Below, piece after piece: positions 8,203-32,047 of a stretch of 64,000 nt of DNA. The notes beneath the pieces are model-generated. The model was not told where the DNA came from, made no database searches, and was given only the letters and a program-made list of their open reading frames with translations. Numbering within the stretch: the first letter of the stretch is position 1; each line of letters opens with the position of its first letter. The stretch comes from Gammaproteobacteria bacterium. Lineage in GTDB: Bacteria > Pseudomonadota > Gammaproteobacteria > Steroidobacterales > Steroidobacteraceae. The stretch covers positions 1-64,000 of the forward strand of contig CANGBB010000008.1 of assembly GCA_947452065.1 (NCBI GenBank). Direction: 5' to 3'. The position numbers and the translations under genes were made by a program.

Positions 8203-8790
8203 TCAAAAGGGCATCAGCGAAAGTGCGGCGGTCGCGATCCCTGCACCCAGAAGAGCGCCTACCAGAACATCCGACGGGTAATGCAGACCAAGCACGACGC
8301 GTGAGAGTGCGATCGCCAGAGCCAATGGCAGGAGGAACGGCAAAAGGACCGGGAATCCAGCTGCTGCGATCGTTGTGAAGCAGACAGCATGCAGCGTGTG
8401 ACCCGAGGGAAAGCTGAACCGATCCAGCGGAACGCCCGCACGCTTAATCAGCGGGTCGGTAATAAACGGACGCTCTCGTACGAACCGTCGCTTCAGATCA
8501 CGATAGAGCAATAGTCCTGTCAGGCCGCTCACTGTCATCTGCAGTGCGACCCACGCGCCGTGTCGACCCGTCAGGGCAAGCATCGCGATCAAAACGTACC
8601 AGACAATGCCGTCTCCGAGTCGACTGGCGATCTGGAACAGTATGCGGGCGCCCGTGCGACTCACGAGGGCGTTGAACTGGCGGCACAGGTTGAGTTCCGT
8701 GCGATCCATCCGTGCGACAAGAGCCGCGACGCGAGATTGTCTGGCCTGAATTTCCATGCCAGTTATCTTCGCGGTGGTTTTATGCAGCAA
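8203..8790 (-). CDS. PAP2-family membrane phosphatase
   Basis: Membrane phosphatase of the PAP2/undecaprenyl-diphosphatase type, 195 residues with about five membrane helices. The three-part active site is complete: KRRFVRERP (KX6RP), PSGH (phosphoryl-transfer His), and SRVVLGLHYPSD (SRX5HX3D). Its start lies 15 bases after the stop of the PlcP-like gene on the same strand, so the two form an operon. In that context it could dephosphorylate phosphatidate or another lipid phosphate and feed diacylglycerol to the glycosyltransferase at 14.2 kb; this role is inferred. It could equally recycle undecaprenyl diphosphate. Confidence 0.88.
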   Translation of the reverse strand: MLHKTTAKITGMEIQARQSRVAALVARMDRTELNLCRQFNALVSRTGARILFQIASRLGDGIVWYVLIAMLALTGRHGAWVALQMTVSGLTGLLLYRDLKRRFVRERPFITDPLIKRAGVPLDRFSFPSGHTLHAVCFTTIAAAGFPVLLPFLLPLALAIALSRVVLGLHYPSDVLVGALLGAGIATAALSLMPF

Positions 8791-8805
8791 TATGACATTG
8801 ACGAA

Positions 8806-9609
8806 TCAGGCGGCCCGTTTCAGAGGCGCCGTTTCCGGATGAGCGGCGGCTTGGCTCTCCTGCTCAGTCCAAAGTCTTAGCTCACCGTTGAGTCCTTCGG
8901 TAATCGCTGTGCAGTGCTCCACCCAGTCGCCGACGTTGCAGTACAGCAGGCCGTCCCGCTGTTCCATCGCCGGTCGGTGGATGTGACCGCAGACCACACC
9001 CTCGAAGCCGCGCCGACGCGCTCCATCCACGGCGGCCCGTTCGAAGCGCTCGACATGCTGACGCACGTTACTGACGCGATTCTTAAGCCATGTCACCAGC
9101 GACCAGTGGGGGAGTCCGAACGCCCGACGGAGGCCATTCAGACGGTAACCCCAGCGGAGCAGGAGGTCGTACAGCCAACTGCCAAGGAAATTCTGCATTG
9201 ACCCGCATTGGACGGCGGCGTCGAACTCATCGCCGTGCAGCACCAACAGGCGCCGGCCATCCGCTAACTGGTGGGTGAATTCGCGTTCGATCTCAATGCC
9301 CTGAAAAGGCTGTCCGCAGAAATCCCGGCACAGCTCGTCGTGATTCCCTGGTATGAAGATGACGCGCGTGCCTGCTCGCGCCCGCTCAATGAGTTCTTTC
9401 AACACCGCGGAATGCGATGGCGGCCAATGGACTGAATTACGCAGACTCCAGAAGTCGATGATGTCGCCAACAAGAAATATTCGTTCGGCATGGAATGATT
9501 GGAGGAGCCGAAGCAGGCGGTCAGCCTGGCACTCTAGGGTGCCCAGGTGAACGTCCGACAGGAAGAGCGTGCGCACTCTGATAGAGGGGCTGAGTAAATT
9601 CGGACTCAT
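8806..9609 (-). CDS. plcP: Metallophosphoesterase, PlcP-like phospholipase C (LpxH superfamily)
   Basis: A calcineurin-fold phosphoesterase of 267 residues. Metal-binding motifs are in the expected order: LFLSDVHLG, VGDIIDFW, IPGNHDE, LVLHGDEFD and VCGHIHRP, ending with CNVGDWVEHCTA. From memory this pattern fits the PlcP branch (Sinorhizobium SMc00171), which removes phosphate head groups from membrane lipids under phosphate starvation, better than true LpxH, but I cannot run the alignment. ATG 9609 has the ribosome site GGCGGA. The longer start at 9669 overlaps a Pho-box-like array (9663-9691) and is therefore less likely. The PAP2 gene follows in the same operon. Confidence 0.8.
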   Translation of the reverse strand: MSPNLLSPSIRVRTLFLSDVHLGTLECQADRLLRLLQSFHAERIFLVGDIIDFWSLRNSVHWPPSHSAVLKELIERARAGTRVIFIPGNHDELCRDFCGQPFQGIEIEREFTHQLADGRRLLVLHGDEFDAAVQCGSMQNFLGSWLYDLLLRWGYRLNGLRRAFGLPHWSLVTWLKNRVSNVRQHVERFERAAVDGARRRGFEGVVCGHIHRPAMEQRDGLLYCNVGDWVEHCTAITEGLNGELRLWTEQESQAAAHPETAPLKRAA

Positions 9610-9662
9610 TATTCCGCCTGCAGCGCCAGACACGGCATTGCGACGCACGGTATCGAGGCAGG

Positions 9663-9691
9663 ATGACACTCCGATGATGACTCGATGGCAA
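9663..9691 (-). promoter_or_regulatory. Pho-box-like array upstream of the plcP-PAP2 operon
   Basis: Read on the minus strand there are three 7-mers separated by 4-base spacers: TTGCCAT, TCATCAT, GTGTCAT, an 11-bp period. The consensus PhoB half-site is CTGTCAT. The last copy matches 6 of 7, the others 5 and 4. A weak -10 (TACCGT) lies 10 bases downstream, giving a leader of about 30 bases to ATG 9609. Confidence 0.5.
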
Positions 9692-9767
9692 TTTGGAGAT
9701 TCTTATTTCTTAAACCTGCAACAATCCGTAGATAAATTTGTTCGTTTCATCTGCATCAAAAATTACC

Positions 9768-10820
9768 GTGGTACGCGCATCCGCTGACACTTTTACGACG
9801 ATTCAGCGACCGGACACAGTAGATACGGCTTACGGCTCTAATCGTGACGGAGTCGTGTGGATCTACTGGTTATCGCCCGGGGTTGCTCCTCGAGAGATTG
9901 ACGCTGAGGATGCGGCGCGATGGCTGAACAACCCTGCGGATGACAATTCCTTTCTTTGGCTGCATTTTTCTCTTTCGAACTCGGCCTCATTGCGCTGGCT
10001 GAGAGCCCACACGGAGCTTCCTGACGCGTTCTACGAGTCACTGCGCGAGAACGTTGTGTCTACGCGGCTCGAGCAGCAAGACAATGGCTTGCTGGCAACG
10101 CTGCTGGATCTGCAATTCAACTCGCAGCCTGATTCTTCGAGCATATCCAGCGTAACGCTCTATGTCGGCCCACGCATGCTCGTCAGTGCCCGCTTGCGCC
10201 CGCTGCGCTCGGTGGATCGCTTGCGCGCTCAGGTCAGGAGTGGCACGACATTTCAGTCGTCGGCCGAGTTGCTGGCCCAGTTGCTCCGGGAGCAGGCGGG
10301 GGTGCTAGCCGACATCCTGCGTGAGTCCACAAGCAAGGTGGACGCAATTGAAGACCACCTGTTGATGGACCGCGTATCAGCCAGTCGTCGCGACTTGGGT
10401 GAACTGCGACGTTTGTTGGTGCGCCTTCAGCGACTTCTGGCGCCCGAGCCGGCCTCGTTGTTCCGCCTGTTGAGCCGGCCACCCGCCTGGCTACGGGAGG
10501 AGGATGCGCAGGATTTACGACAAGCGGCTGAAGAATTCGCGACGGCCATAGGCGACTCGTCGGCACTGGCCGAGCGTGTCAAATTACTGCAGGAAGAGCT
10601 TTCGGCTCTGGTCACTGAGCAAACGAACCGGACACTTTTCGTGCTGACTCTGGTGACCGTCTTGGCGTTGCCGGTCAACATGGTCGCCGGCCTGCTGGGC
10701 ATGAACGTCGGCGGTATACCCTTTGCAACCAGCCATCACGGGTTCTCAGTGGTTGTTTCGCTGCTCGCAGCCTGCACGGCGTTAGTGACCTGGCTCCTCT
10801 GGCGACGATTCAATCGTTAA
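9768..10820 (+). CDS. CorA-family divalent metal transporter, ZntB-like
   Basis: Inner-membrane transporter of the CorA superfamily, 350 residues. The N-terminal cytoplasmic alpha/beta domain contains SFLWLHFSLSN and a long helical funnel (about residues 170-290). Two C-terminal helices carry the selectivity motif GMN in LLGMNVGGIPFATSHHGF, where the GGIP continuation is typical of ZntB (zinc transport coupled to protons). GTG 9768 is preferred; TTG 9738 is the alternative, and no in-frame ATG is present nearby. The gene is divergent from plcP, and the Pho-like array lies between them but points the other way. Confidence 0.87.
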   Translation: MVRASADTFTTIQRPDTVDTAYGSNRDGVVWIYWLSPGVAPREIDAEDAARWLNNPADDNSFLWLHFSLSNSASLRWLRAHTELPDAFYESLRENVVSTRLEQQDNGLLATLLDLQFNSQPDSSSISSVTLYVGPRMLVSARLRPLRSVDRLRAQVRSGTTFQSSAELLAQLLREQAGVLADILRESTSKVDAIEDHLLMDRVSASRRDLGELRRLLVRLQRLLAPEPASLFRLLSRPPAWLREEDAQDLRQAAEEFATAIGDSSALAERVKLLQEELSALVTEQTNRTLFVLTLVTVLALPVNMVAGLLGMNVGGIPFATSHHGFSVVVSLLAACTALVTWLLWRRFNR

Positions 10821-10883
10821 TTCAGTGCTGTAAGACGTCTGTAGCAATCCCAAACTAAGCTTGGGTTTGTTCGTGGTCGAGCC

Positions 10884-10947
10884 CCCCAAGATCGCCCACA
10901 ACCGCTTGGGGCACTGTCTCGTCAATCTCCCTTCGAGGCAGTGCCCC
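10884..10947. terminator. Two overlapping, mutually exclusive hairpins between convergent genes
   Basis: Hairpin A pairs CCCCAAG (10884-10890) with CTTGGGG (10905-10911). Hairpin B pairs GGGGCACTG plus TCTCG (10908-10921) with CGAGG plus CAGTGCCCC (10934-10947), with one wobble. They share bases 10908-10911, so only one can form fully. There is no U-run. The position between two 3' ends suggests a bidirectional terminator or 3'-end protection. Confidence 0.45.
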
Positions 10948-10953
10948 GGTTGA

Positions 10954-11829
10954 CTATCGGCTGTGGGCAAAACCGAATAGCGCCTCACCCATCCGGATTC
11001 GATGACCTGGGCTGATTCCGGGCACGAGCGTCATGCTCGAGGGCGTGATTGCAATGATGGTTGAGCCATGCTCAAACCATCCCATTTCCTGTCCCTTTGT
11101 GTAATCGCTGTCGCAGTCGAACTTCCGGTGCCCGCGATGACGGAGATTGAGCAGGTCCGGGATGGCATGTAGGCGGATGCCAGCAACCAGAATTGCCGCA
11201 ACCGGCACTAACAGCATGGTTGTTCCGCACCGGAGCCGCAGTCTCACCACCGCGCGTTCATTCCGACAGTACAAGCGATCGACACGGTCCAAGGCCGGTG
11301 GATTGACATTCCAGGCGTCTCCGCCGATGTAGTTCACCTGCGTGAGAGTGCAATCATGGGGGGCGTGAAAGCGGTGATACATCCCAGCTGTCAGACGCAG
11401 GGTGGCGTAGGTTCCGCTAGAAAATTCTGCCGCCAGCGCCTCATCCGCCAGCAGCTCAGAGAGCGGATAGCTCCGTCCTTTAGCCTGTAGGGCCTGTCCC
11501 GACTGTAAGGCTCCACATTGGCCTACGATCGCGTCGCAGGGGCTCGCTACGATCTGCGGGCGCAGGTCAACGGAACGCGCCCCGTCGCGCAATTCCCTAA
11601 TGAAGCAATCGTGCAGGCTGGAAAAAGTCGTTTTCCGTGCATCCGTCAGATCCACATCGGCAAATGTGCGCCAGGCAGCGATGCTCAGGTCTCGAATCAA
11701 TGGCTGCTCGATCCGGCTGAGGCGGCTCATCAGAAGCGTCAAGCGCCGCCGCGGCAACCAATTGGTCAGTGCGAAATTAAGTCCTGGCTGTTGCAGCACC
11801 CGCTGCAGCAAAGATCTGAGCATTTTCAT
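10954..11829 (-). CDS. psd: Phosphatidylserine decarboxylase homologue
   Basis: Pyruvoyl-dependent membrane-associated enzyme that converts phosphatidylserine to phosphatidylethanolamine; 291 residues, the normal length. Motifs include FFIREL-like DCFIRELRDGAR, SPCDAIVGQCG, the catalytic Asp/His region TAGMYHRFHAP, and the self-cleavage site near the C-terminus. The cleavage tetrapeptide is HGST (FEHGSTIIAI) rather than the bacterial LGST; the Gly-Ser pair required for cleavage is kept. The start is 43 bases from the divergent aminotransferase start. Its location inside a phosphate-regulated lipid cluster suggests a specialised paralogue, but whether another psd exists cannot be seen here. 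Confidence 0.88.
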   Translation of the reverse strand: MKMLRSLLQRVLQQPGLNFALTNWLPRRRLTLLMSRLSRIEQPLIRDLSIAAWRTFADVDLTDARKTTFSSLHDCFIRELRDGARSVDLRPQIVASPCDAIVGQCGALQSGQALQAKGRSYPLSELLADEALAAEFSSGTYATLRLTAGMYHRFHAPHDCTLTQVNYIGGDAWNVNPPALDRVDRLYCRNERAVVRLRLRCGTTMLLVPVAAILVAGIRLHAIPDLLNLRHRGHRKFDCDSDYTKGQEMGWFEHGSTIIAITPSSMTLVPGISPGHRIRMGEALFGFAHSR

Positions 11830-11830
11830 T

Positions 11831-11859
11831 GCGTCATCGCTCTGTCATGGTGCTGACAA
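11831..11859 (+). promoter_or_regulatory. Pho box upstream of the class III aminotransferase
   Basis: Three 7-mers with 4-base spacers: GCGTCAT (11831), CTGTCAT (11842, perfect consensus) and CTGACAA (11853). After the first pair, 11 bases separate the box from CAAAAT (11860-11865), a plausible -10. Transcription would then start about base 11872, right at the ATG 11873. Confidence 0.65.
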
Positions 11860-11872
11860 CAAAATGCAGGGT

Positions 11873-13570
11873 ATGAATACATGGATAGCCTCGTTGGCCG
11901 CTGCTGCGGCCGCATTCTGGATCGGACGTCGTCTGTGGAGAAGGGCTGAATTGTCCTTTGCCAAACATCCCTCGCTCGAGGGGCATCCGCGCTGGTCCAG
12001 GCGACTGGCACGCCTGCTCCCGTACTACGCCTACGATGACGAAATCTTCTTTAATGTCGACGGCGCCCCCGCGCCTGTTGCTCAACAGCGCAGGAACGCC
12101 TTTGAAGCCCTCGGAGAGCTGCTCCGCACCCGTCATCGGCTTGGTCGGGAGCTGACGGCCGAAGCCACCGAAGGGCTGTCGGATTTGCAATTCACGGCGC
12201 GTTACCGTGTGCCGTTCCAGTTCAGCCAGCGCGTTCGCGAGACCCTCGGAGGTGATGCGTTTGCCACCAGCACCTCCGGTATGACGGTTCGCGACACAGA
12301 CGGCAATCAGGCGTTCGATCTGACCGGCTCGTATGGCGTCAACGTCTTTGGGAACGACTTCTACAAAGAATGCATTGAGCGCGGGTCGGCAGCGGTGCGC
12401 GAGCTCGGACCGGTGCTGGGCGCGCTCCATCCTGTGGTGATCGACAATGTTCGCCGCCTGCGTGCCATTTCCGGCATGGACGAGATCTCGTTTCACATGT
12501 CGGGCACTGAAGCGGTGATGCAAGCGGTCAGACTGGCGCGCTACCACACGCGCCGTCGTTATGCCGTGCGGTTTTGCGGCGCCTATCATGGCTGGTGGGG
12601 TGATGTGCAGCCCGGCACCGGCAATCCCCTCATCGCGCGTGACACGCTCACGCTGCATGACATGAGTGAGTCTGCATTGCAGGTGTTGCGGCATCGTGGA
12701 GATATTGCCTGCGTGCTGGTCAATCCCTTGCAGGGACTTCATCCCAATCGCGGCGCACCAGCCGATTCCGCGCTGATTGCTGCACGTGGTAGCTACAGCT
12801 TTGATCGCGAAGCCTATGCCGCTTGGTTGCAGCGCTTGCGGCAGATTTGTGATCAGCGAGGAATTGCATTGATCTTCGACGAGGTTTTCCTGGGTTTCCG
12901 ACTCGCTCCGGGAGGTGCTCAGGAGTATTTCGGAGTCAAAGCCGATCTGGTGACCTACGGTAAAACGGTGGCTGGCGGACTGCCGATTGGCCTGGTGGCG
13001 GGTCGTAGCCGCTGGATGCGACGTTTCAACCCCGATAGGCCGGGAGACATCTGCTTTGCCCGGGGAACCTTCAATTCGCACCCCTATGTCATGGGTGCGA
13101 TGAATGAGTTTCTCCGCGCCTTGGAGACTGAGCCGCTGCGTACTCTCTACCGTGACCTCGACCAGAAGTGGAACGGGCGGGCGGAGTTCCTCAATCAGCA
13201 ACTCATAAAGACCGGTGCCCCCGTACGAGTGGCCAACCTGTCCACCGTCTGGGCGCTCTACTTTACTCAACCGTCCCGCTATCACTGGATGTTGCAGTAC
13301 TATCTGCGTGCCCAGGGGCTCGCCCTGAGCTGGGTTGGATCCGGCAGACTGATTTTCACGCTCAACTGCACTGACGCAGAGTTCTCCGAGGTGGTACAGC
13401 GGGTCGAAGCCGCCGCCCGCGCCATGCTTTCGGATGGCTGGTGGTGGATCGACCCGACTGTGAACGCTCGGAGCATGCAGCGTCGAGTGCTGCGGGAAAT
13501 GCTTCAGGCGCGCTGTTCCTCGGTCTTCTCGTCAGTCATAGGATCAATCAGCTCGCCGCGGAGCAAATAG
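11873..13570 (+). CDS. Membrane-anchored class III (GSAM-like) PLP aminotransferase
   Basis: Fold-type I PLP enzyme of about 565 residues. Residues 3-20 form a hydrophobic segment followed by Arg residues (IGRRLWRR), suggesting a single N-terminal membrane anchor with the catalytic domain in the cytoplasm. A unique region to about residue 130 precedes the aminotransferase fold. Seen in the fold: SGTEAVMQAVRLAR near residue 210, the cofactor Asp in IFDEVFLGF (about 336) and the Schiff-base Lys in TYGKTVAGGLPIG (about 364). It is much longer than HemL (about 430), and a true hemL exists at 63.3 kb, so this is not the tetrapyrrole enzyme. ATG 11864 is an alternative start. The last 67 bases overlap the convergent gene. 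Substrate unknown; a ketone lipid or lipid precursor is inferred from context. Confidence 0.85.
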   Translation: MNTWIASLAAAAAAFWIGRRLWRRAELSFAKHPSLEGHPRWSRRLARLLPYYAYDDEIFFNVDGAPAPVAQQRRNAFEALGELLRTRHRLGRELTAEATEGLSDLQFTARYRVPFQFSQRVRETLGGDAFATSTSGMTVRDTDGNQAFDLTGSYGVNVFGNDFYKECIERGSAAVRELGPVLGALHPVVIDNVRRLRAISGMDEISFHMSGTEAVMQAVRLARYHTRRRYAVRFCGAYHGWWGDVQPGTGNPLIARDTLTLHDMSESALQVLRHRGDIACVLVNPLQGLHPNRGAPADSALIAARGSYSFDREAYAAWLQRLRQICDQRGIALIFDEVFLGFRLAPGGAQEYFGVKADLVTYGKTVAGGLPIGLVAGRSRWMRRFNPDRPGDICFARGTFNSHPYVMGAMNEFLRALETEPLRTLYRDLDQKWNGRAEFLNQQLIKTGAPVRVANLSTVWALYFTQPSRYHWMLQYYLRAQGLALSWVGSGRLIFTLNCTDAEFSEVVQRVEAAARAMLSDGWWWIDPTVNARSMQRRVLREMLQARCSSVFSSVIGSISSPRSK

Positions 13571-14124
13571 AGCGGGGCCTTGTAGTACAAAGCCACGTCA
13601 TGAAAGGGGTCGGTCATGATCTTCGTGATCCATACCAATCCTGTCTGTACGTCGCGGACGAAAAAGAGCTGAACGGTGCGAAAGATCAGAGCGCCGGCGC
13701 CAACCGCTAGCCAGATCCAGCCGACCTGCTGAACAAGTTCGGCATGGTTCGAGGCCGGATGCAGGATTCCAAAGAGGCTGGGGCTGACCTCAAGCAGTAG
13801 CGGTGACAGTGCCCAGATGGCGAGAAGAACAATCTTGCGTTGGATGTTGTAACCAACCTTGATCTCTTCCTTATATTCGTCCGTCGCCTGATTGACTTCA
13901 TCATAGCCACGTGGCTCGAAGAAGAAGTGTCCGGATTGACGAGTGAGCATGGAGACCAGCCAACCCATCAGTGCGGCAGCGGCCGGGCTGTAGAACAGCA
14001 GGATGTAGGCGCTGATAAAGCTGAGTGCGCTAACCAGATGCAGTGACTGATTGATGCGGCTGTGATGGTAATAGCGATGGTCATCATCGCGCTGAATCTT
14101 TAAAGCAGCAAAGAAATCCCGCAT
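13504..14124 (-). CDS. Mpo1/DUF962-like integral membrane protein
   Basis: A membrane protein of 206 residues with about four hydrophobic segments. Two conserved-looking polar patches sit at the membrane ends: YYHHSRINQSLHLV and RQSGHFFFEPRGYDE. They match the pattern of yeast Mpo1 (YHH...N...H and GHxxFE), an Fe(II) dioxygenase that removes one carbon from 2-hydroxy fatty acids; I infer the same fold and metal-ligand histidines, but similarity elsewhere is low. ATG 14124 is chosen because GGAG lies six bases upstream; the in-frame ATG at 14184 would overlap the Pho-like site. It faces the glycosyltransferase divergently and overlaps the aminotransferase 3' end by 67 bases. Confidence 0.65.
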   Translation of the reverse strand: MRDFFAALKIQRDDDHRYYHHSRINQSLHLVSALSFISAYILLFYSPAAAALMGWLVSMLTRQSGHFFFEPRGYDEVNQATDEYKEEIKVGYNIQRKIVLLAIWALSPLLLEVSPSLFGILHPASNHAELVQQVGWIWLAVGAGALIFRTVQLFFVRDVQTGLVWITKIMTDPFHDVALYYKAPLYLLRGELIDPMTDEKTEEQRA

Positions 14125-14173
14125 GGCAACTCCAACATTGTGACAAGTATCCGGATAGAAATATCGGGTTGGC

Positions 14174-14191
14174 GTTTCAGTCATGTGACAG
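14174..14191 (-). promoter_or_regulatory. Pho-box-like site toward the Mpo1-like gene
   Basis: On the minus strand CTGTCAC is followed after four bases by CTGAAAC. The first repeat matches the PhoB half-site 6 of 7, the second is weak. TATTTC, ten bases further on, could serve as -10, leaving a leader of about 27 bases with its ribosome site. Confidence 0.45.
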
Positions 14192-14194
14192 CGA

Positions 14195-14212
14195 CCGTCA
14201 CAAAGGCGTCAA
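14195..14212 (+). promoter_or_regulatory. Pho box toward the glycosyltransferase gene
   Basis: CCGTCAC and GCGTCAA are separated by AAAG, an 11-bp period. Ten bases downstream lies CATATT (14223-14228), a possible -10, which puts the transcription start within a base or two of ATG 14237. Confidence 0.55.
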
Positions 14213-14236
14213 CTGACCCAGTCATATTTGGCCGCC

Positions 14237-15292
14237 ATGAGAATCATGATCGTGACCGATGCGTGGTTTCCCCAGACCAATGGGGTTGTTCAGACGCTGG
14301 CCCGTACGGGCATGTGGCTCGACCATTTTGGGCACGAAGTCAAATTCGTCACCCCGGAGCGATTCCGCAGCTTTGCCTGTCCGACCTATCCGGAGATCAG
14401 GCTGGCCTGGCGGCCGTATAGCCAGCTTGCTGATATTGCCGATGCGTTTGAGCCAGAGGCGATCCATGTCGCAACCGAAGGGTCACTGGGCCTCGCTGCG
14501 CGCCGCTATTGCATCCGGCGTCGATACTCCTTCACCACCTCTTACCACACTCAGTTTCCGCACTATCTCCATGCCCGCATGCGGATGCCGAAGCCGGTTT
14601 CCTATCAGGCGTTGCGCTGGTTTCATGGAGCTGCGGAGCGCTGCATGGTCAGCACTGAATCGATCTCCAATGAGCTGGCAAGTCACGGTTTCCGGAATAT
14701 CGCGCGATGGCGGCGCGGCGTTGATACGCAGCTATTCCATCCCCGCGACAAGGCATTTCTTGATCTGCCGCGGCCCATAGCCACGTATGTCGGCCGATTA
14801 GCGGTTGAGAAAAATGTTGAGGCATTCCTCTCCATGAAGTGGCAGGGGAGCAAGCTGGTGATCGGTGACGGTCCAGAGCGTGAACGACTGGAGCGCGCCT
14901 ATCCTGAGGCGAGTTTTGTTGGCTACCGATTCGGCGAGGATCTGGCGGCTCACCTTGCGGCCTCGGATGTCATGGTGTTTCCAAGTCTTACCGATACCTT
15001 TGGCCTAGTGAACCTTGAGGCCATGGCCTGTGGCGTCCCGGTTGCGGCGTTCCCGGCTGCTGGTCCACGAGACGTCATACGCGATGGCGTCACCGGCATT
15101 CTCGACAACGATCTGGCACTGGCGGCGTCGAAAGCCCTGCTGCTGAATCCCGACGACTGTCGGAGCTACGCACTAAAATGGGGCTGGGACGTTTGCTCTC
15201 GGGATTTTGAGAGAAACTTGATGCCAACCAGAGCTTACAACGCTCGTGGTGCGGCGACCGGCCCAGCGCAACTTTCACGAGTCAGTCACTGA
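14237..15292 (+). CDS. GT4 glycosyltransferase, Agt/MgtA/SQD2-like lipid glycosyltransferase
   Basis: GT-B-fold retaining glycosyltransferase of about 351 residues. The N-terminal TDAWFPQTNGVVQTL is the acceptor-side signature shared by MgtA, SQD2 and diacylglycerol glycosyltransferases. In the C-terminal half YVGRLAVEKNVE and the EX7E region (TDTFGLVNLEAMACGVPV) bind the nucleotide sugar. Ornithine- or glycolipid-forming bacteria pair such an enzyme (Agt) with PlcP, and a PlcP-like gene lies 5 kb away in this cluster, so diacylglycerol glycosylation is the favoured role. ATG 14237 has no ribosome site; the Pho-type promoter predicts a leaderless message. TTG 14228 is the alternative start. 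Confidence 0.85.
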   Translation: MRIMIVTDAWFPQTNGVVQTLARTGMWLDHFGHEVKFVTPERFRSFACPTYPEIRLAWRPYSQLADIADAFEPEAIHVATEGSLGLAARRYCIRRRYSFTTSYHTQFPHYLHARMRMPKPVSYQALRWFHGAAERCMVSTESISNELASHGFRNIARWRRGVDTQLFHPRDKAFLDLPRPIATYVGRLAVEKNVEAFLSMKWQGSKLVIGDGPERERLERAYPEASFVGYRFGEDLAAHLAASDVMVFPSLTDTFGLVNLEAMACGVPVAAFPAAGPRDVIRDGVTGILDNDLALAASKALLLNPDDCRSYALKWGWDVCSRDFERNLMPTRAYNARGAATGPAQLSRVSH

Positions 15293-15351
15293 TTTGTAAA
15301 CAAGATGGGTCAGCATGCAAACGCGCGGCTGGCCCTAGTGGGTATGCGTCG

Positions 15352-15585
15352 ATGAGCGAGAACGACACAGACGGGATCGTTGAGCGGCTCGTGACAGAGT
15401 TCGAAGCAACGAAACTGGCGGCCATTGATGCCCGCGAGCGTTATCTCATGCTGATGCTGACCAGCGATGAACATGTCAATTTTAGTGCGGCATTTGTAGC
15501 GCAGCGCTCATGGATCCGATTGGAGGCGGCATGCGATGCTATCCTTCATTACATTGATCGGCTGTCCGAACGAAATGCGGCTTAG
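15352..15585 (+). CDS. Small hypothetical protein
   Basis: A 77-residue, helical, acidic-to-neutral protein that I do not recognise. Three helices are suggested (DGIVERLVTEFEATKLAAIDARERYLML, FSAAFVAQRSWIRLEAACDAILHYIDRL). It lies between the glycosyltransferase and the TonB receptor on the same strand, 60 bases after the former. Its stop codon lies inside the first copy of a 19-bp tandem repeat. It may be real, but there is no homology evidence. Confidence 0.45.
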   Translation: MSENDTDGIVERLVTEFEATKLAAIDARERYLMLMLTSDEHVNFSAAFVAQRSWIRLEAACDAILHYIDRLSERNAA

Positions 15586-15621: not shown

Positions 15622-15645
15622 ATTGTGTTGATAGGGAGAAATGAT

Positions 15646-18069: not shown

Positions 18070-18078
18070 CCGACTGAG

Positions 18079-21484: not shown

Positions 21485-21564
21485 TTCAGCCTTCTGTTCT
21501 CTGCAGGCGGATTACCTGCCGAGATTCTCCGCAACTCTAATTGCGGCCCAGTTTCAGCTTCGCG

Positions 21565-23541: not shown

Positions 23542-23666
23542 GGTGAGCGATGGCCCCGTGGCAGTGATCGTGAAGTCAGGTCCGATCGGTCGAACTTAGA
23601 CCGCTCCATATTGCAGCGGATTTTCGACACCGTTGTCCAGAATATAAATGGGCAGTTGTGATTGTG

Positions 23667-23706
23667 CTGTCACGAAAGCGTCCCCAATCTGTCACAAAGT
23701 GTCGCT
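23667..23706 (+). promoter_or_regulatory. Tandem Pho box upstream of TonB receptor
   Basis: Four 7-mers at exact 11-bp spacing: CTGTCAC (23667), GCGTCCC (23678), CTGTCAC (23689), TGTCGCT (23700). Two match the PhoB half-site 6 of 7. The array ends 47 bases before the receptor ATG. CTTAAT (23709-23714) is a possible -10. The divergent NPP gene starts 125 bases away. Confidence 0.68.
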
Positions 23707-23753
23707 AGCTTAATCAGTCTTCGATACGCCTCATCATAGGAACTGCCATCGCT

Positions 23754-26006
23754 ATGTCTAGTAGACAAATCACGATCAGCCTGCGCCTGATTACCCTTGC
23801 AGCGAGCGCCGCTGCTTCAGCTCTGTCTCATGCCGCTGATTTCGCTGCCGAAAAAAGCAATCTTCTGGAAGAGGTTGAGGTGACGGCCCAGCGAACCTCT
23901 GCCTTGACCCAGGCGCCGACCAGCAGCCGGCTGGATGCAATGCAGCCTCAGTCTGAAATTGGCATCGAGCGCATTGCCAACACCATGGTGCCGACTGCCG
24001 ATTACGCCACGATCGCGAATCTGGCCCCGGGCGTCTCGAACGTCGAGACAAATGGCCCTGGATTGAGCGAATCCAAGCATCTGACGATGCGTGGATTTGA
24101 TGACGCGTCCTACAACGTGACGTACGACGGTATTCCTTTCGGTGACCAGAACGACTGGTCGCATCACAGCACCAGCTATTTCCCAGCGAAGGTTGTCGGC
24201 AAGATGGTGGTGGACCGTGGCCCGGGTACGGCCAGCACCATCGGCCAGGCCACGTTTGGCGGCACGATTGCCATGTATTCCAAGGATCCGCGTGAGGACA
24301 TGGTGTTCGTCCCGACGCTGAGTCGCGGCAGTTGGGACACGAGCCTGTCCCACTTTGAATTCAACACCGGCCGCATTGCCGAGCTGAATAACGCCACGGG
24401 AATCGTGAGCTTCCAGCGCATGACGACGGATGGTTATCGCACCGCCTCGGACATGAAGCGCGACACGTATTACCTGAAGTTCTTGCAGCCGCTAAGTGAG
24501 AGCACGACGATCACTCTCCTGAGCTCTTACAACAAGATTCGCTTTAGCAATCCTGGCACCGTTACGCAGGCGCAAATCGATACACTGGGACGCAACTATG
24601 GTCTCAGCGACACGCCTTTCGCCACTGATAATCGCCTCTACAACTATCAGGAAAAGGTGGCGGATTTTGAGTACGTTGGAATCGACTCCAAACTCAGCGA
24701 CAACTGGGAACTGAGCAACAAGGTCTATACTTACTACTACGACAACCAGAGCCGCGAAGCGCCGAAGGTCAAGACGGTCAGCGGCGTTCTGAACAACATC
24801 GGCTCCTTTAAAGTTAATCGCTATCGGAACTACGGTGATTACCTCGTTCTCTCGCGCAAGGACTCGATCGGCACCTTTAAGACTGGGATGTGGTTTGACT
24901 ACACTCGGAACCCCCGTTTCCTCTATGGTCTGAATTACACGAACACTGGGGATACGGCCACCGATCTTTCGTCGGCAACCGTATTGTTCGCGCCCGTGGC
25001 TGCCAATCCGCTGACCGCGGTTGGTGCGCAGGATTACAACTACAGCTACGACATGGTGGAATGGGCTCGCGCCTCACAGGGTTTCGCGGAGTACGAATGG
25101 CACCCTGGCGCGCTGACGGTTAACGCCGGCCTCAAGTACTTCAAATTCAAGCGAGACATCGAAGCGACGGTCAATGGGACCAAGGCGCGCCTGCCGCTCT
25201 ACTACAGCCACACTGATACCAAGACGCTGGGTTACCTCTCAGCGAACTATCTGTTTGCGCCGACCTGGTCTGCTTACGCGCAGGTGGCTCAGGGCATGCT
25301 GTCACCCAATCTGAATCAGTTCTACGTCGATACGCCGAGCAACAACACGATCAAGCCGGCTGAGACCATGAACTATCAGGTTGGCACGGTCTACCAGACG
25401 GACAGGTTCAATGCGGATGCCGATGTTTATTACATCGACTTCAAGAATTACGCCTACAAGGGTCCGACTAATTCTGCTGGTGATCCGCTCTACATTGGTC
25501 TCGCTCAAGGAGCCAAGTATCAGGGCGTTGAATTCCAGGGTACTTACTCGCTTGGCAACGGGCTCAGTGTGTACGGGAACTACGCCATGGCGAGTGCCAA
25601 GTTCAAGGGTTCGAACCTTGATGTGCCGACAGTTCCCAAGAACACTGCAGCGCTCGGACTTGTCTATGACAATGGTGGTTTCACCACCGCGCTGACCGAC
25701 AAGTTCGTGGACAGCTGGGCGGTTTACGACACCATCACCAACCCGGATGTAGCCGGCGGTGGTGCGACTCGTCGGGCTGATAGCGACAAGTATTGGCTCG
25801 CCGATTGGTCGCTGGGGTACAGCGCCAAGGTGTCCAACTCCTTCTTCCAGAGCTACAAGCTGCGTCTCCAGGTGAGCAACCTGTTCAATAACAAGGTGCA
25901 GGTCCTGAACGGTATCGATGCGTCGGCGGTGAACGCCTACACGAAGGATGCCTTCAATGTTCTGCCGGACCGCAATTACTTCCTGACGCTTTCGGGCGAA
26001 CTCTGA
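23754..26006 (+). CDS. TonB-dependent outer-membrane receptor
   Basis: A 750-residue receptor with a signal peptide (LITLAASAAASALSHA), TonB box LEEVEVTAQR, a plug with IANLAPGVSNVE, LTMRGFDDASYNVTYDGIPFGD and VDRGPGTAS, and a barrel that includes QVAQGMLSPNLNQFYVDTP. It ends in FLTLSGEL rather than with an aromatic residue. The phytase-like gene starts one base after its stop, so receptor and esterase are translationally coupled. The Pho-box array upstream suggests induction by phosphate starvation and uptake of an organic phosphate such as a phytate breakdown product; the substrate is inferred. Confidence 0.93.
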   Translation: MSSRQITISLRLITLAASAAASALSHAADFAAEKSNLLEEVEVTAQRTSALTQAPTSSRLDAMQPQSEIGIERIANTMVPTADYATIANLAPGVSNVETNGPGLSESKHLTMRGFDDASYNVTYDGIPFGDQNDWSHHSTSYFPAKVVGKMVVDRGPGTASTIGQATFGGTIAMYSKDPREDMVFVPTLSRGSWDTSLSHFEFNTGRIAELNNATGIVSFQRMTTDGYRTASDMKRDTYYLKFLQPLSESTTITLLSSYNKIRFSNPGTVTQAQIDTLGRNYGLSDTPFATDNRLYNYQEKVADFEYVGIDSKLSDNWELSNKVYTYYYDNQSREAPKVKTVSGVLNNIGSFKVNRYRNYGDYLVLSRKDSIGTFKTGMWFDYTRNPRFLYGLNYTNTGDTATDLSSATVLFAPVAANPLTAVGAQDYNYSYDMVEWARASQGFAEYEWHPGALTVNAGLKYFKFKRDIEATVNGTKARLPLYYSHTDTKTLGYLSANYLFAPTWSAYAQVAQGMLSPNLNQFYVDTPSNNTIKPAETMNYQVGTVYQTDRFNADADVYYIDFKNYAYKGPTNSAGDPLYIGLAQGAKYQGVEFQGTYSLGNGLSVYGNYAMASAKFKGSNLDVPTVPKNTAALGLVYDNGGFTTALTDKFVDSWAVYDTITNPDVAGGGATRRADSDKYWLADWSLGYSAKVSNSFFQSYKLRLQVSNLFNNKVQVLNGIDASAVNAYTKDAFNVLPDRNYFLTLSGEL

Positions 26007-26007
26007 A

Positions 26008-27324
26008 GTGCTGTACTCCCGCCTGACTGTAGCGGTTCTCGCGGCACTGGCCTGTTCAAGGGCCGGTGCCGCGGTCACCTACCTCGGTGTCGCCACACTG
26101 GATGGATTGGATAAATCCGGGCTGAGCGGCAAGCTGGAGGACGGTGTTCGGTCGCCGGCAGTCATCGGCGGGTTTTCAGCTATTGCTTGGACGGGCCGCG
26201 GCAACAGTTATCTGGTCCTACCCGACCGCGGCCCCAACGCCGAGGCCTATGCGGGCGGCGACGGCGTGGATAACACGCAGTCCTTCATTAACCGCGTTCA
26301 GGCTATCGATATCGAAGTGACCGGCGATGCCAGCCATGGCTGGAGTGTTGCTGGCCGGCTGAAGAGCACCTCGCTGTTGAGTAGTGAGGTGCCGCTCACA
26401 GGGGCTACGACCGGCAACCCTGAGCGCCGCTATTTCACGGGGCTCAGTAGCGGAATCGATCCGACTGTTCTAACACGGAGCATGCGTCTGGATTCCGAAG
26501 GGTTGCGCGTTGCCAGTGATCGAAAGAGCTTTTTCGTGTCTGACGAATACGGCCCATTCGTCTACGAATTTGCCATGAGTACTGGCCAGCGGCTACGCAG
26601 TTTTGTGCTTCCTTCTGAGTTTGTGGTGCAGAAGGCGGCCGCGATCGGCAAGCAGGAGATCGCGACGAATACCACCGGCCGCGTGTCTAACAAGGGTATG
26701 GAAGGCCTGGCCATTACGCCGGATGGCGGAACGCTCGTCGGGCTCATGCAGGCCCCCTTGCTCCAGGATCACGCGCTCAGTGCTGAAGATGGCAAGTCTG
26801 CGGTGGGTATCTATTCACGGCTGATCAGTATTGACCTGCGTCATTGCTCGGCTGGAACTCAGGCCTCGTGTGCGACCCGTCAGTTTGTTTACGAGCAGTC
26901 GGCTCCGACGACCGGCAACAGTGAGTTGCTTGCGGTCAATGAGCATCAGTTTCTGGCAATCGAGCGCGATGGCAAGGCCGGGGGTGGATCGGTCAAGTTG
27001 ATTACTCTCATCGATCTCGAGGGTGCAACCGATATTTCCGCTGTAGCTCAGTTGCCGCAGACTGGCCTCCCTGCGGTTGTTAAGCCCACTAAGAAGCGCG
27101 TGTTGTTTGATTTGGCCGCGACCTTGAAGGCAGCGGGTGAGACTGTTGTGGAGAAGTACGAAGGCCTCGCATTCGGACCCGATCTTCCGGATGGGCGGCA
27201 CCTGCTTCTGGTCAGCGTCGATAATGATTTCGTACGGGATGCACCTAGCAAAATCTACGCTTTTGCTGTTGATCGCAACGAACTCCCCGAATTCAAACAG
27301 CAGGTCTTCTCTGGCGCTAAGTAG
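26008..27324 (+). CDS. Phytase-family esterase-like protein (PF13449 type)
   Basis: A secreted beta-propeller-like protein of 438 residues with a signal peptide (LTVAVLAALACSRAGA). Repeated acidic motifs are typical of 'esterase-like activity of phytase' proteins: YLVLPDRGPNAEAY, FFVSDEYGPFVYEF, KGMEGLAITPDGGTLVGLMQ, FLAIERDGKAGGG and VEKYEGLAFGPDLPDGRHLLLVSVDNDF. The enzyme probably hydrolyses phosphate monoesters or diesters, with Ca held by the Asp/Glu residues. GTG 26008 follows the receptor stop after one base. The following gene starts 116 bases later. Confidence 0.85.
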   Translation: MLYSRLTVAVLAALACSRAGAAVTYLGVATLDGLDKSGLSGKLEDGVRSPAVIGGFSAIAWTGRGNSYLVLPDRGPNAEAYAGGDGVDNTQSFINRVQAIDIEVTGDASHGWSVAGRLKSTSLLSSEVPLTGATTGNPERRYFTGLSSGIDPTVLTRSMRLDSEGLRVASDRKSFFVSDEYGPFVYEFAMSTGQRLRSFVLPSEFVVQKAAAIGKQEIATNTTGRVSNKGMEGLAITPDGGTLVGLMQAPLLQDHALSAEDGKSAVGIYSRLISIDLRHCSAGTQASCATRQFVYEQSAPTTGNSELLAVNEHQFLAIERDGKAGGGSVKLITLIDLEGATDISAVAQLPQTGLPAVVKPTKKRVLFDLAATLKAAGETVVEKYEGLAFGPDLPDGRHLLLVSVDNDFVRDAPSKIYAFAVDRNELPEFKQQVFSGAK

Positions 27325-27440
27325 TGTCGCGGGAGGGCGTGTATCCTGCGGCCAGGTATGATTCGCAGCCGGTGGCGTTAAGGTCTGGCTGATCGCCACG
27401 CCAGCCGTAGTCTTAGGGAGTACCTGCCACCATCGCTCCA

Positions 27441-28637: not shown

Positions 28638-28760
28638 CCGCTTTTTAAGCGTGCTTCAAACGCACCAGAGCGCCTGCTTCACGGCAACGCGTCAGGCTTC
28701 GAAGTTCCGCGGTCTCCTGCTCATAAAGATAAACAATCAACCTAGACCAAGATTTCCGGG

Positions 28761-30359: not shown

Positions 30360-30525
30360 GCGATCTATCTTGGCATTTTAGCTCTCAGTCGCGAAGGCAT
30401 TTCTATGGAGCCCGATTCATGGCCCGCCATCATCGCGGCTGTCGGGGCAGTTGCAGATGGCCCTTTAGTGGTCCCGAGTGGGTCATTCATTGTGACGCTC
30501 CTATCAGCCGCCAGGCCAACGGCGT

Positions 30526-30543
30526 ATGTCACAAGCCTGTAAG
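30526..30543 (+). promoter_or_regulatory. Pho-box-like site upstream of S1/P1 nuclease
   Basis: ATGTCAC and CTGTAAG are separated by AAGC (11-bp period), matching the PhoB half-site 5-6 of 7 each, 58 bases before the nuclease ATG. The rest of the 30360-30600 gap shows no convincing gene. Confidence 0.45.
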
Positions 30544-30600
30544 AATTCGACCCCACAGTCACATTAGGTGCCAAATGATGACAGTGGAACGGGTAGCCCG

Positions 30601-31608
30601 ATGCAGTGGAAAGTCAGATGGATTGTGCTGCTATTGGCATTCAACAGTGCCGATTCATGCGCGTGGAATGCGATTGGGCACCAAGTGATTGGCGGGATCG
30701 CTGATCGTCTAATAGAAGGAACGCCCGCACAGCAACATGTCAGGGACATCCTGCGCGCCGAATCGCTGTCAACCGCCTCAGTATGGGCTGATTGTGCCAA
30801 GGGCGTGGATGAACAGGGATCGTTCCGATACGTCTCCAGTGATCGCTTCCCGGAGTGTCAGCCTTTCGACACTCCGGAAGGGCGTGAGCAGATGGTCGAT
30901 TACGTGATGCGTAACGATGGTCGCTGCACTGTGTTGCCTGGTCAGGAAACATGCCACCGGCAGTATCACTACGCCGACCTTGATTCCTCGATGAGTGTTT
31001 ATCGGCCGGGTGTTGAAGGTAGTAGCGATCACGACATTGTTTCCGGAATCAAGGCCGCGGTTGCAGTGCTCGCTGGAAGGCAAGCGCCGGACCCATTCTA
31101 TATTCCATCCAAAGTTGTCGCGTTGCGACTGCTCGTACACTGGGTAGGAGACCTTCATCAGCCATTACATGTCGCAGCCGTCCACATCGACAGCGCTGGG
31201 CAGATCGTCTCAGCTCAAGAGTTTTTAGCGGAATCCGAGACTCGCGGTGGAAATCTAATCCGGCATGATGGTCGTTCCCTCCATGCGGAATGGGACGAAG
31301 CCCCTGAGGGCGTGGTTCAACCGCTGTTTTTTCAGGAAGCCGCTCGTGCCGCTAGGTCAAACTCACTTATCCCGGGTCCGGTCGAAAGCTGGCCGGAGAT
31401 TTGGGCCAGCGAGTCAGCGCGCAACAGCTTGCGGGTGTTCGACGGGATGCAGTTCATGGCGCGCAGCTGCACGGCCAATAATCGCTGCGTATGGGAGGCG
31501 CATACGCCAGAGTCCTATGCGGAACGTAGGGTTAACCTTCAGCACGATGCTATGATCGAAGCGGGTGTGCGTTTGTCCCAACTGCTCAGCGCACTTTGGC
31601 CAAGATGA
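30601..31608 (+). CDS. Secreted S1/P1-type nuclease
   Basis: Zinc-dependent nuclease of 335 residues that cleaves single-stranded nucleic acids and can remove 3'-phosphates. After the signal peptide (WIVLLLAFNSADSCA) the predicted mature N-terminus is Trp, whose amino group is a zinc ligand in this family (WNAIGHQVIGG). Other zinc ligands: RQYHYADLD, LLVHWVGDLHQPLH, and GGNL...LHAEWDE. ATG 30601 is chosen because it gives a standard signal peptide; the frame is open to 30568. Extracellular nucleic acids are a phosphate source, which fits the Pho-like site upstream. The EF-hand gene follows after 31 bases. Confidence 0.92.
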   Translation: MQWKVRWIVLLLAFNSADSCAWNAIGHQVIGGIADRLIEGTPAQQHVRDILRAESLSTASVWADCAKGVDEQGSFRYVSSDRFPECQPFDTPEGREQMVDYVMRNDGRCTVLPGQETCHRQYHYADLDSSMSVYRPGVEGSSDHDIVSGIKAAVAVLAGRQAPDPFYIPSKVVALRLLVHWVGDLHQPLHVAAVHIDSAGQIVSAQEFLAESETRGGNLIRHDGRSLHAEWDEAPEGVVQPLFFQEAARAARSNSLIPGPVESWPEIWASESARNSLRVFDGMQFMARSCTANNRCVWEAHTPESYAERRVNLQHDAMIEAGVRLSQLLSALWPR

Positions 31609-31639
31609 AATACAAAACCCTGCTCGGGAAGTCAAAGGC

Positions 31640-32047
31640 ATGTCTGTAAAGCTGATTTCTGCTTCGATCGCCTCCATGGTGATGGGTTTGGCAATGGCTC
31701 AAAACGCCCCTGATGGCGACGCTCGCAAAGAGCAAAGCCGGATAGATTTAGCTGCGCGTTTCAAGCAGCTGGACAAGAATGGAGATGGCAAGCTGACCCT
31801 GGATGAGCTCACCGCCGGGTTCTCAAGCGTCCCACTCGGACGCCGTCCGGCCGGCCCCGATACGGGAGCGACCGAACCTTCAGAAAAACTCAGCCAGCCG
31901 ACAATGTCAGTAGGTGAGTTCCTCAAGGCCGCTGATTCGAATAACGACGGCGTGCTGAGCGTTGATGAATTTACTTCGATGGTTGAGAAGGTCCGGGAGT
32001 CTGGGCGCTCAGGCGGTGGAATGGGCGGAGGCATGGACGGCGCATAG
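31640..32047 (+). CDS. Small secreted EF-hand calcium-binding protein
   Basis: A protein of 135 residues with a signal peptide (LISASIASMVMGLAMA) and two canonical EF-hand loops, DKNGDGKLTLDE near residue 45 and DSNNDGVLSVDE near residue 97, separated by a Pro-rich linker; the C-terminus is Gly-rich. It probably binds Ca in the periplasm. It follows the nuclease gene closely on the same strand and may be cotranscribed. The role is unknown. Confidence 0.82.
   Translation: MSVKLISASIASMVMGLAMAQNAPDGDARKEQSRIDLAARFKQLDKNGDGKLTLDELTAGFSSVPLGRRPAGPDTGATEPSEKLSQPTMSVGEFLKAADSNNDGVLSVDEFTSMVEKVRESGRSGGGMGGGMDGA

Follow-up and report, generated by a model that had tools for sequence, protein, structure and literature searches.

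Sequence comparison indicates that a little-known four-enzyme lipid cassette is present in many bacteria and that the same phosphate-control DNA switch often precedes it. The cassette combines a phosphatidylserine-decarboxylase paralogue (PSD), a class III aminotransferase (AT3), an Mpo1-like protein and a GT4 glycosyltransferase (GT4), and by homology and gene order it is a recurring unit in Alpha-, Beta- and Gammaproteobacteria. In the 64,000-nucleotide stretch of DNA analysed here (the window), it lies within a 24-kb island (8203-32047) in which phosphate-saving and phosphate-collecting genes are grouped together. On balance, we favor reading this block as a phosphate-starvation cluster under PhoB control, with the widely conserved cassette as its core acting after the lipase PlcP. 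The cassette's likely role is to supply a phosphorus-free membrane lipid once phosphate is exhausted.

Bacterial life at low phosphorus in soils, lakes and oceans depends on membrane lipid replacement. A conserved cassette that has a recurring phosphate switch and lacks a known product points to a missing lipid.

Results

Gene content and composition of the island

Seventeen ORFs of the island were taken into the annotation (most of them in Table 1). The phosphorus-related families named in the initial annotation were all recovered by Pfam or NCBIfam models, and its list had missed PSD, AT3 and the Mpo1-like protein. One recovered protein scores 363.7 bits against the NCBIfam OlsF cut-off of 620 and is therefore called OlsF-like rather than OlsF proper. 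Four of the 17 ORFs (CorA/ZntB-like, ChrA-type, an unassigned 532-aa protein and an EF-hand protein) have no obvious phosphorus role; the CorA/ZntB-like transporter had zero matches in the 80 cassette loci described below and shows no sign of cassette membership. A tRNA-Arg (8045-8121) flanks the island; a tRNA-borne integrative island was rejected, as no exact repeat of at least 12 bases of the 3' part of tRNA-Ser or tRNA-Arg occurs elsewhere in the window. Neither the full 24-kb block nor the scavenging half together with the cassette was found in the relatives examined. The block therefore seems to have been assembled locally, as a clustering of separately inherited modules, not a conserved unit.

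Table 1. Genes and Pho-box-like sites of the island, in window coordinates
Feature	Position	Strand	Evidence
PAP2-family phosphatase	8203..8790	-	PF01569 5e-20
PlcP-like metallophosphoesterase, LpxH-like	8806..9669	-	Pfam Metallophos
Weak Pho-box-like site, at chance level	9663..9680	-	shuffle p 0.096
CorA/ZntB-like metal transporter	9762..10820	+	PF01544 1.5e-52
PSD	10954..11829	-	PF02666 1.9e-52
Triple Pho box GCGTCAT-CGCT-CTGTCAT-GGTG-CTGACAA, divergent PSD/AT3 promoter	11831..11859	+	p 0.002; recurs in homologous promoters
AT3	11873..13570	+	PF00202 1.7e-31; N-terminal helix predicted
Mpo1-like multi-helix protein	13504..14124	-	PF06127 weak 9.9e-4, below gathering
Pho box CTGTCACATGACTGAAAC, Mpo1-like/GT4 gap	14174..14191	-	p 0.002
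GT4, Agt-like	14237..15292	+	PF13439/PF13692
TonB-dependent receptor 1	15646..18069	+	PF00593 3e-28
PhoD phosphatase	18079..19665	+	PF09423 3e-105
OlsF-like bifunctional acyltransferase (ornithine-type aminolipid)	19673..21484	-	PF13444 + PF19576
Pho-box-like site 5' of OlsF-like gene	21562..21579	-	12.2 bits, p 0.044
NPP-type phosphodiesterase	21565..23541	-	PF01663 1.8e-31
Pho-box array TTGTGAT-CTGTCAC-gcgtccc-CTGTCAC, 11-bp steps, NPP/TonB gap	23656..23695	+	17.93 bits, p 0.002
TonB-dependent receptor 2	23754..26006	+	PF00593 6e-33
'Esterase-like activity of phytase' protein	26008..27324	+	PF13449 9.7e-54
Marginal Pho-box-like site ATGTCACAAGCCTGTAAG upstream of S1/P1 nuclease	30526..30543	+	p 0.030; 3/9 outside gaps also < 0.05
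S1/P1 nuclease	30568..31608	+	PF02265 3.8e-23

Pho boxes within the window

The bare consensus CTGTCATN4CTGTCAT, allowing up to three mismatches, was not enriched in the window (7 sites against 4.94 expected). A comparison of PhoB-matrix scores with shuffled sequence, as the initial annotation had suggested, did find the island enriched. The matrix was E. coli-derived (eight Pho boxes), and at 12 bits or more it returned 8 sites in the island versus 2 in the remaining 40 kb of the window; 30 were present in 400 kb of sampled genome, phoB region included. Dinucleotide shuffles of the island (n=100) gave a mean of 1.77 and a maximum of 6 at this threshold, none reaching 8, and the reversed matrix found 1 site inside the island and 3 outside it in the window. 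Enrichment was weaker at 13 bits, where 1 of 100 shuffles gets to the 4 sites of the island. Four of the 8 sites fall in gaps (11831 and 11842, overlapping in one array, 14174 and 23656), two at gene ends (15272, 21562) and two within genes (16296, 20875).

Gap by gap, the floor of the shuffle test (p 0.002) was reached at 11842, 14174 (minus strand) and 23656, while the convergent CorA/PSD gap gave 0.038 and the 30526, 21562 and 9663 sites also lay above the floor. Outside the island, three of the nine gaps long enough to test had p < 0.05 (0.022, 0.038 and 0.044) but none reached the floor; the three island gaps that did are therefore the only ones to stand out. Of the boxes first proposed, those in the gaps at 11831, 14174 and 23667 (the last being part of the 23656..23695 array) thus held up, some outside gaps do as well as 30526, and 9663 is at chance. 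At 14174, spacing 12 scores nearly as well as spacing 11 (15 vs 16), and the second site proposed there, at 14195 on the plus strand (CCGTCAC/GCGTCAA), scores lower. Overlap with the NPP stop codon and with a hairpin makes the 21562 site ambiguous. The genome encodes PhoB (TIGR02154, 347.5 bits; cut-off 296.2), and the phoB promoter bears the same box at 17.99 bits, with a further box at a gene downstream of phoB that is porin-like by eye.

Recurrence of the box at promoters of relatives

Across 42 dereplicated PSD/AT3 promoter regions (our own included; 6 titled Bradyrhizobium), the mean best score was 11.9 at spacing 11, whereas the remaining spacings between 8 and 23 gave 2.6-5.9. A score of at least 9 was reached by 30/42 regions at spacing 11 and by at most 10/42 at any other spacing. 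The combined shuffle p was 7e-32, although the relatedness of the genomes, which are non-independent, means that all p values given here overstate. In many relatives the PSD start codon and the first repeat overlap. Upstream of GT4 (28 dereplicated regions), spacing 11 averaged 11.8 against 3.9-7.5 at other spacings. Upstream of the Mpo1-like gene, spacing 11 had the higher mean (11.5 vs 9.5 at spacing 14), while scores of at least 11 were more frequent at spacing 14 (24/45 vs 20/45). The strong PSD/AT3 box is missing in several lineages (12/42 regions score below 9), as it is from 5/10 of a later promoter set drawn partly from the same kinds of bacteria; in the one-strand operons a strong 11-bp box was found at only 1/7 promoters. 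Upstream of PlcP in relatives the box was seen in only 1/5, and for NPP in 0/7 testable relatives.

The coordinated PhoB regulon first proposed for the whole block therefore survives mainly for the lipid-replacement half, where 11-bp boxes recur across lineages; the scavenging half has one strong box only (NPP/TonB2). A PhoB-type regulon for the lipid-replacement half is well supported by these comparisons, and the cassette is very probably under PhoB control in the source lineage.

The block might alternatively be an ordinary Pho regulon assembled by chance, a low-GC, recently gathered set of common phosphorus genes with few real boxes. Such an origin would fit the island GC of 0.577, below the sample mean of 0.617 (although an even lower GC occurs in 2 of 20 sampled stretches), a PhoD without a match at E 1e-60 in any of the genus's 14 other genomes, the lack of NPP boxes in relatives, the failure of 9663, the three of nine outside gaps that equal 30526 or 21562, and the four ORFs without a phosphorus role. 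It leaves unexplained both the conservation of cassette and box across classes and the co-occurrence of the cassette with PlcP. We consider chance assembly quite unlikely for the block as a whole, although it may be correct for the scavenging half.

Conservation of the cassette

Cassette loci were sampled in genome_contigs as the best 80 of 483 relatives, and many Bradyrhizobium genomes bear the cassette (57 of these 80 loci are so titled). PSD is divergent to AT3 in 80/80 of these best loci, the Mpo1-like gene is present in 79/80, and GT4 has a match anywhere in the retrieved DNA in 74/80. Among related genomes, 22 of 24 AT3 loci contain PSD; the two exceptions (L144, L148) are short loci in which the AT3 match itself is partial. 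Six distant loci (L275-L280) are arranged on one strand in the order AT3, an ~890-aa protein, PSD and Mpo1-like. The ~890-aa protein ends in a GT4 domain by Pfam (4 scanned), and an OlsF-type gene comes next in L275 and L278. Sphingomonas parapaucimobilis has the box as well, and there a PmtA-like methyltransferase is in line with the Mpo1-like gene.

Residues and relatives of the cassette enzymes

The cassette enzymes look active, to judge from the retained PSD D/H/H/S residues, AT3 lysine and Mpo1-like histidine motifs. In PSD, D99, H152, H155 and S256 are invariant in 32/32 aligned sequences and the GST motif is present. A retained PSD could simply supply phosphatidylethanolamine; since this is a phospholipid, such a role would be at odds with a phosphorus-free product. 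The cassette might then maintain or recycle ordinary phosphatidylethanolamine, with PSD acting on phosphatidylserine and with AT3 and the Mpo1-like protein salvaging pieces of head groups or acyl chains set free by PlcP. The canonical catalytic residues and the nearest solved relatives of PSD, which are E. coli-type enzymes, are in keeping with this role, as are two neighbors: a PmtA-like phospholipid methyltransferase (136 bits against a cut-off of 390), which in the Sphingomonas locus is in line with the cassette, and a transporter, which we take to be LplT-like, adjoining GT4 in 6/34 neighborhoods compared. However, another PSD, only 31% identical to that of the cassette, is already encoded in the genome, and phospholipid synthesis under PhoB during breakdown by PlcP would be self-defeating. 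We also know of no role for AT3 or Mpo1-like proteins in the known route to phosphatidylethanolamine. We regard phosphatidylethanolamine recycling as unlikely.

AT3 K364, the presumed PLP lysine, is invariant in aligned relatives. The best solved relative of AT3, by both sequence and predicted fold, is the aminotransferase domain of mycosubtilin synthase (6kfm), which aminates a beta-keto acyl group; yeast Mpo1 acts on 2-hydroxy fatty acids. Both point toward acyl-chain modification, in which AT3 would yield a beta-amino fatty-acid lipid. This scheme has no obvious place for PSD and GT4, and other class III enzymes, including C-6' sugar aminotransferases, match AT3 as well; we hold it to be very unlikely. 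The Mpo1-like protein, whose 206-aa start is backed by homologues, keeps the motifs DDHR, HHS, NQ.LH, GHFFFEP and DP.HD invariant (16 rows). Its predicted model had no PDB match, and weak PF06127 scores (window 19.6, relative L188 20.6, relative L279 24.8; gathering 24) point only weakly to membership of the Mpo1 family.

Association with PlcP

The PlcP-like gene was considered as LpxH and rejected, since it scores only 39 bits with the LpxH model and the true LpxH of the genome, on C6, scores 277 bits. Its gene context with GT4 and PAP2 would fit a putative phospholipase C acting on membrane phospholipids; PAP2 adjoins PlcP and GT4 in two related genomes (G029 and G034). PlcP homologues occur in 70 of 148 related genomes (our own counted), namely in 24/25 with AT3 versus 46/123 others (Fisher 3e-8), and within the family (G000-G089) in 24/25 versus 34/65 (5e-5). 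In 8/25 genomes, the window included, the coordinates place PlcP no more than about 4 kb from AT3. A functional link of the cassette to PlcP is likely.

Discussion

In the favored reading of a PhoB-controlled lipid cassette, low phosphate would lead PhoB to bind the tandem 7-mers, as the recurring boxes suggest, and to switch the cassette on. By analogy with published PlcP, the PlcP-like enzyme would remove phosphate head groups to leave diacylglycerol, the presumed substrate of GT4, which by its family would add a sugar. AT3 may add an amino group, PSD take off a carboxyl group and the Mpo1-like protein oxidise an intermediate, in one order or another. The end product would be a phosphorus-free, amine-bearing polar lipid substituting for phosphatidylethanolamine. 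The scavenging genes (PhoD, NPP, S1/P1 and TonB receptors) and the OlsF-like synthase would have joined by separate acquisition.

An aminated, phosphorus-free lipid as the product is possible, and we propose it tentatively. The complete scheme is more speculative and somewhat doubtful in its entirety: a PhoB-controlled PSD-AT3-Mpo1-like-GT4 pathway, undescribed within the literature searched and widespread in Alpha-, Beta- and Gammaproteobacteria, many Bradyrhizobium among them, may make a phosphorus-free aminated glycolipid that replaces phosphatidylethanolamine. The sugar added by GT4 would be oxidised, AT3 would transaminate it, and a PSD put to a new use would do the trimming.

Several known systems offer comparisons. 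In phosphatidylserine decarboxylases the D/H/H/S residues are catalytic and the GST motif is self-cleaving; the cassette PSD shares these and its family with E. coli PSD (6l06), but is a divergent paralogue (FEHGST, versus FNMGST in the other PSD of the genome) that adjoins AT3 wherever the AT3 flank is readable. AT3 has the class III fold and lysine motif of the mycosubtilin synthase domain and GSAM (6kfm, 2cfb), but stands alone, with ~120 residues, starting with a predicted helix, preceding the matched region. The ornithine-lipid synthase OlsF shares its acyltransferase and GNAT domains with the OlsF-like protein, and OlsF-type genes lie beside two distant operons, yet the island protein scores below the NCBIfam cut-off; we know of no chemical overlap between OlsF and the cassette. 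As in an E. coli-type Pho regulon, the island has tandem CTGTCAT-like 7-mers at 11-bp steps, and the genome has PhoB and a box at phoB; the targets differ, being lipid-cassette and scavenging genes that are, to our knowledge, absent from the E. coli Pho set. According to the main text of PMC9239053, PlcP-Agt remodelling in Ensifer, Roseobacter, Pelagibacter and Methylosinus replaces phospholipid with glycolipid at phosphate limitation. The words 'decarboxylase' and 'aminotransferase' have zero occurrences in that main text. The island likewise has a GT4 together with a metallophosphoesterase that is related to LpxH yet distinct from it; compared with the system described there, its GT4 is accompanied by PSD, AT3 and the Mpo1-like protein.

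A conserved cassette within the phosphorus-gene block

Four genes of the 24-kb phosphorus-gene block (the island), encoding a PSD paralogue, a class III aminotransferase (AT3), an Mpo1-like protein and a GT4 glycosyltransferase, form a cassette that recurs in other genomes. A search of genome_contigs with AT3 returned 483 relatives; among the best 80 of these 483 loci, 57 are titled Bradyrhizobium and the rest are, by title, other Proteobacteria, save one titled Frankia. Within the same best 80 of 483, a divergent PSD adjoins AT3 in every case (80/80), the Mpo1-like gene is found in 79, GT4 lies anywhere within the fetched DNA in 74, and PlcP occurs in 4. AT3 is present in 25 of 148 related genomes, own included, and in 6 of 15 within the window's genus; PSD accompanies it in 22 of the 24 non-own loci from the 148. 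A sample of the phylum gave AT3 in 25 of 398 genomes, own included, with a divergent PSD within a short flank in 17 of 24 non-own loci; AT3 identity is at most 54% in the remaining seven.

Six of these seven, read more widely (L275-L280), carry AT3, a protein of about 890 aa, PSD and the Mpo1-like gene, in this order and on one strand, and in the seventh, L268, the contig stops within the second gene. The C-terminal part of the ~890-aa protein is a GT4 by Pfam in all four scanned (L276-L279) and by tblastn in all six. Its first ~500 residues, before the GT4 part, hold the motif DxHCHDxNSDVPDELWGRI and matched Pfam in 0/4 scanned. An OlsF-type gene comes next after the one-strand operon in L275 and L278.

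The PSD catalytic residues D99, H152, H155 and S256 are unchanged in 32/32 aligned sequences, and the cassette PSD shares 31% identity with the genome's other PSD. K364 of AT3, which we take to be the PLP lysine, is invariant in alignments that leave out L049, L066, L072, L102 and L128. The predicted AT3 model (pLDDT 77) has an N-terminal helix, and its closest solved fold (E 4e-27) is the mycosubtilin synthase aminotransferase domain; weaker sequence matches include C-6' sugar aminotransferases. The Mpo1-like protein has a weak Pfam score, and its histidine motifs are invariant in 16 rows with 61-72% identity to the window's protein (two rows being one sequence); a fold search with its model (pLDDT 78) gave nothing below E 0.9. 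The Mpo1-like proteins of locus L126 (G021, same family) and of L044, a public MAG titled Gammaproteobacteria, show no differences where they align, and on this match the window's organism is presumed to be a gammaproteobacterium.

In the literature searched, whose scope excludes most subscription papers, the accessible portions do not describe the cassette, no paper joins phosphatidylserine decarboxylase with a Pho box, and none unites phosphate starvation, phosphatidylserine decarboxylase, aminotransferase and PlcP. The available parts of PMC9239053 and PMC11631085 do not mention the cassette, which is thus undescribed as far as these searches reach.

Pho-box sites in the island and in related promoters

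A bare consensus count showed no enrichment (7 seen against 4.94 expected), and a position weight matrix (PWM) was therefore used, built from eight E. coli boxes. At 12 bits or more, the PWM found eight sites in the island (two overlapping in one array), two in the other 40 kb of the window and 30 in a 400-kb sample. Shuffled islands held a mean of 1.77 such sites and none of 100 reached eight, while the reversed matrix found one site in the island; at 13 bits there were four island sites, a number that 1 of 100 shuffles attained. The top island site (17.93 bits) is close to the site before the genome's phoB (17.99) and above a 15.53-bit site preceding a gene, porin-like by eye, that lies downstream of phoB.

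The initial annotation had placed tandem 7-mers resembling CTGTCAT, spaced by 11 bp, in five gaps of the island. A gap-by-gap shuffle test, with a p floor of 0.002 and three outside gaps of fewer than 25 bases skipped, upheld the PSD/AT3, Mpo1-like/GT4 and NPP/TonB2 gaps but not the site at 9663. Outside the island 3 of 9 tested gaps also fell below 0.05 (0.022, 0.038 and 0.044), so that only the three gaps at the floor can be pressed; the S1/P1 gap is no better than some outside gaps.

Features of the window and of related loci, with p values from the gap-by-gap shuffle test
Feature	Position	p	Remark
tRNA-Ser, then phage-type integrase gene	3914-5651		att repeats not detected
tRNA-Arg	8045-8121		island begins after
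PlcP/CorA gap	9663 (site)	0.096	
CorA/PSD gap		0.038	convergent
PSD/AT3 gap		0.002	floor
Mpo1-like/GT4 gap		0.002	floor; spacing 12 almost equals spacing 11
GT4/TonB1 gap		0.27	
OlsF gap	21560-21586 (hairpin)	0.044	Pho-box-like site upstream of OlsF-like gene is this hairpin, at NPP stop codon
NPP/TonB2 gap		0.002	floor
S1/P1 gap		0.030	
Phy/ChrA gap		0.94	
Permease-like protein, 532 aa	28764-30359		Pfam and NCBIfam searches without match
PmtA-like phospholipid methyltransferase, Sphingomonas parapaucimobilis	L188:12478-13131		NF045882 1e-39, below cut-off
MFS carrier resembling LplT	L078:6435-7688		

The box at the PSD/AT3 promoter recurs in relatives. Shared 6-mers served to cut 113 regions, among them repeat copies and the window's own, to 42. 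The mean score of these dereplicated regions (own included) was 11.9 at spacing 11, as opposed to 2.6-5.9 at other spacings from 8 to 23, and the second-best spacing was 22, twice eleven. The combined p at spacing 11 is 7e-32, but the relatives are not independent, and the spacing contrast is therefore better evidence than the p value. Upstream sets for GT4 and the Mpo1-like gene were drawn from matches whose alignment begins no more than 25 residues into the query, with the window's own loci left out. GT4 regions average 11.8 at spacing 11 and 3.9-7.5 elsewhere, and 15 of 28 score at least 11. The 45 Mpo1-like regions are less clean than those of GT4, with means of 11.5 at spacing 11 and 9.5 at spacing 14, and scores of at least 11 in 20/45 and 24/45, respectively. 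A Sphingomonas plasmid likewise carries a box between PSD and AT3.

The predicted control by PhoB is nevertheless not universal, since 12 of the 42 PSD/AT3 regions lack a strong score (<9), a strong box is absent in 5/10 of a later, not fully independent, region set, and the one-strand operon has a strong box in only 1/7 promoters. Upstream of AT3 and the one-strand operon in L276 lies an inverted repeat, TGTCAAAATATGACA, which is almost identical in L268; this repeat suggests a regulator other than PhoB.

Scavenging genes and the setting of the block

The block had been read initially as one coordinated PhoB regulon. The boxes recurring at the cassette in relatives favor a PhoB-type regulon for the lipid-replacement half; the scavenging half has one strong box, in the NPP/TonB2 gap. 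PhoD is found in 30/148 related genomes, own included, and in 0/14 other genomes of the genus; NPP is found in 9/148, own included. Of the eight non-own NPP genomes G013 was left out, and the other seven, each represented by two overlapping loci (14 rows), had no Pho box in the NPP promoter (0/7 testable). OlsF occurs in 20/148 genomes, own included, with a box of at least 12 in 4/15 testable promoters. The DNA fetched around PhoD, NPP and OlsF in relatives contained no cassette, the exceptions being PlcP/PAP2 beside the cassette and the OlsF-type gene beside L275/L278. In ten relatives, across ~20 kb on each side of AT3 as contigs allowed, scavenging genes were undetected save for a 38% PF13449 match (G029). 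Because the scavenging genes, that one match apart, were not detected near the cassette in these ten relatives, the 24-kb block looks like a local gathering of genes.

The window's genome comprises 2.17 Mb in 10 contigs and is 96% complete. Island GC is 0.577, against a mean of 0.617 for 20 sampled stretches, two of which fall below the island. No att repeats were found at the tRNA-Ser and tRNA-Arg genes in the window.

PlcP and lipid-type neighbors

At a homologue cut-off of E 1e-35 or better, PlcP is present in 70/148 related genomes, as compared to 24/25 genomes with AT3, the sole exception (G070) being 62% complete. This co-occurrence gives Fisher p values of 3e-8 across the 148 genomes and 5e-5 within the family, taken as G000-G089. 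Their coordinates place PlcP no more than ~4 kb from AT3 in 8/25: the window, G029, G034, G042, G051, G052, G057 and G081. The window's PlcP-like protein is not LpxH; a true LpxH is encoded elsewhere in the genome.

PlcP and PAP2 adjoin the cassette in relatives. The PmtA-like gene of S. parapaucimobilis shares 4 bases with the Mpo1-like gene and is preceded by a Pho-box-like site, and an LplT-like MFS carrier adjoins GT4 in 6/34 cassette neighborhoods compared. These neighbors in other genomes (PlcP, PAP2, PmtA-like, LplT-like and OlsF-type) point to lipids. The betaine lipid marker PF11899/BtaA had no match in the window's genome. In a genome of the same family (G016, contig C43, locus L243), PlcP adjoins an OlsF-like gene. 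Mutual exclusion of AT3 and OlsF was considered and rejected, as three genomes share both (p 1.0 for the 148 genomes, 0.55 for the family).

Discussion

The new part within the island is probably its conserved, PhoB-linked cassette, with a putative lipid product. Judged from sequence, the island itself appears real and mostly of a known kind, a Pho regulon with lipid replacement; in other bacteria, formation of a glycolipid by PlcP and a GT4 partner is established (PMC9239053).
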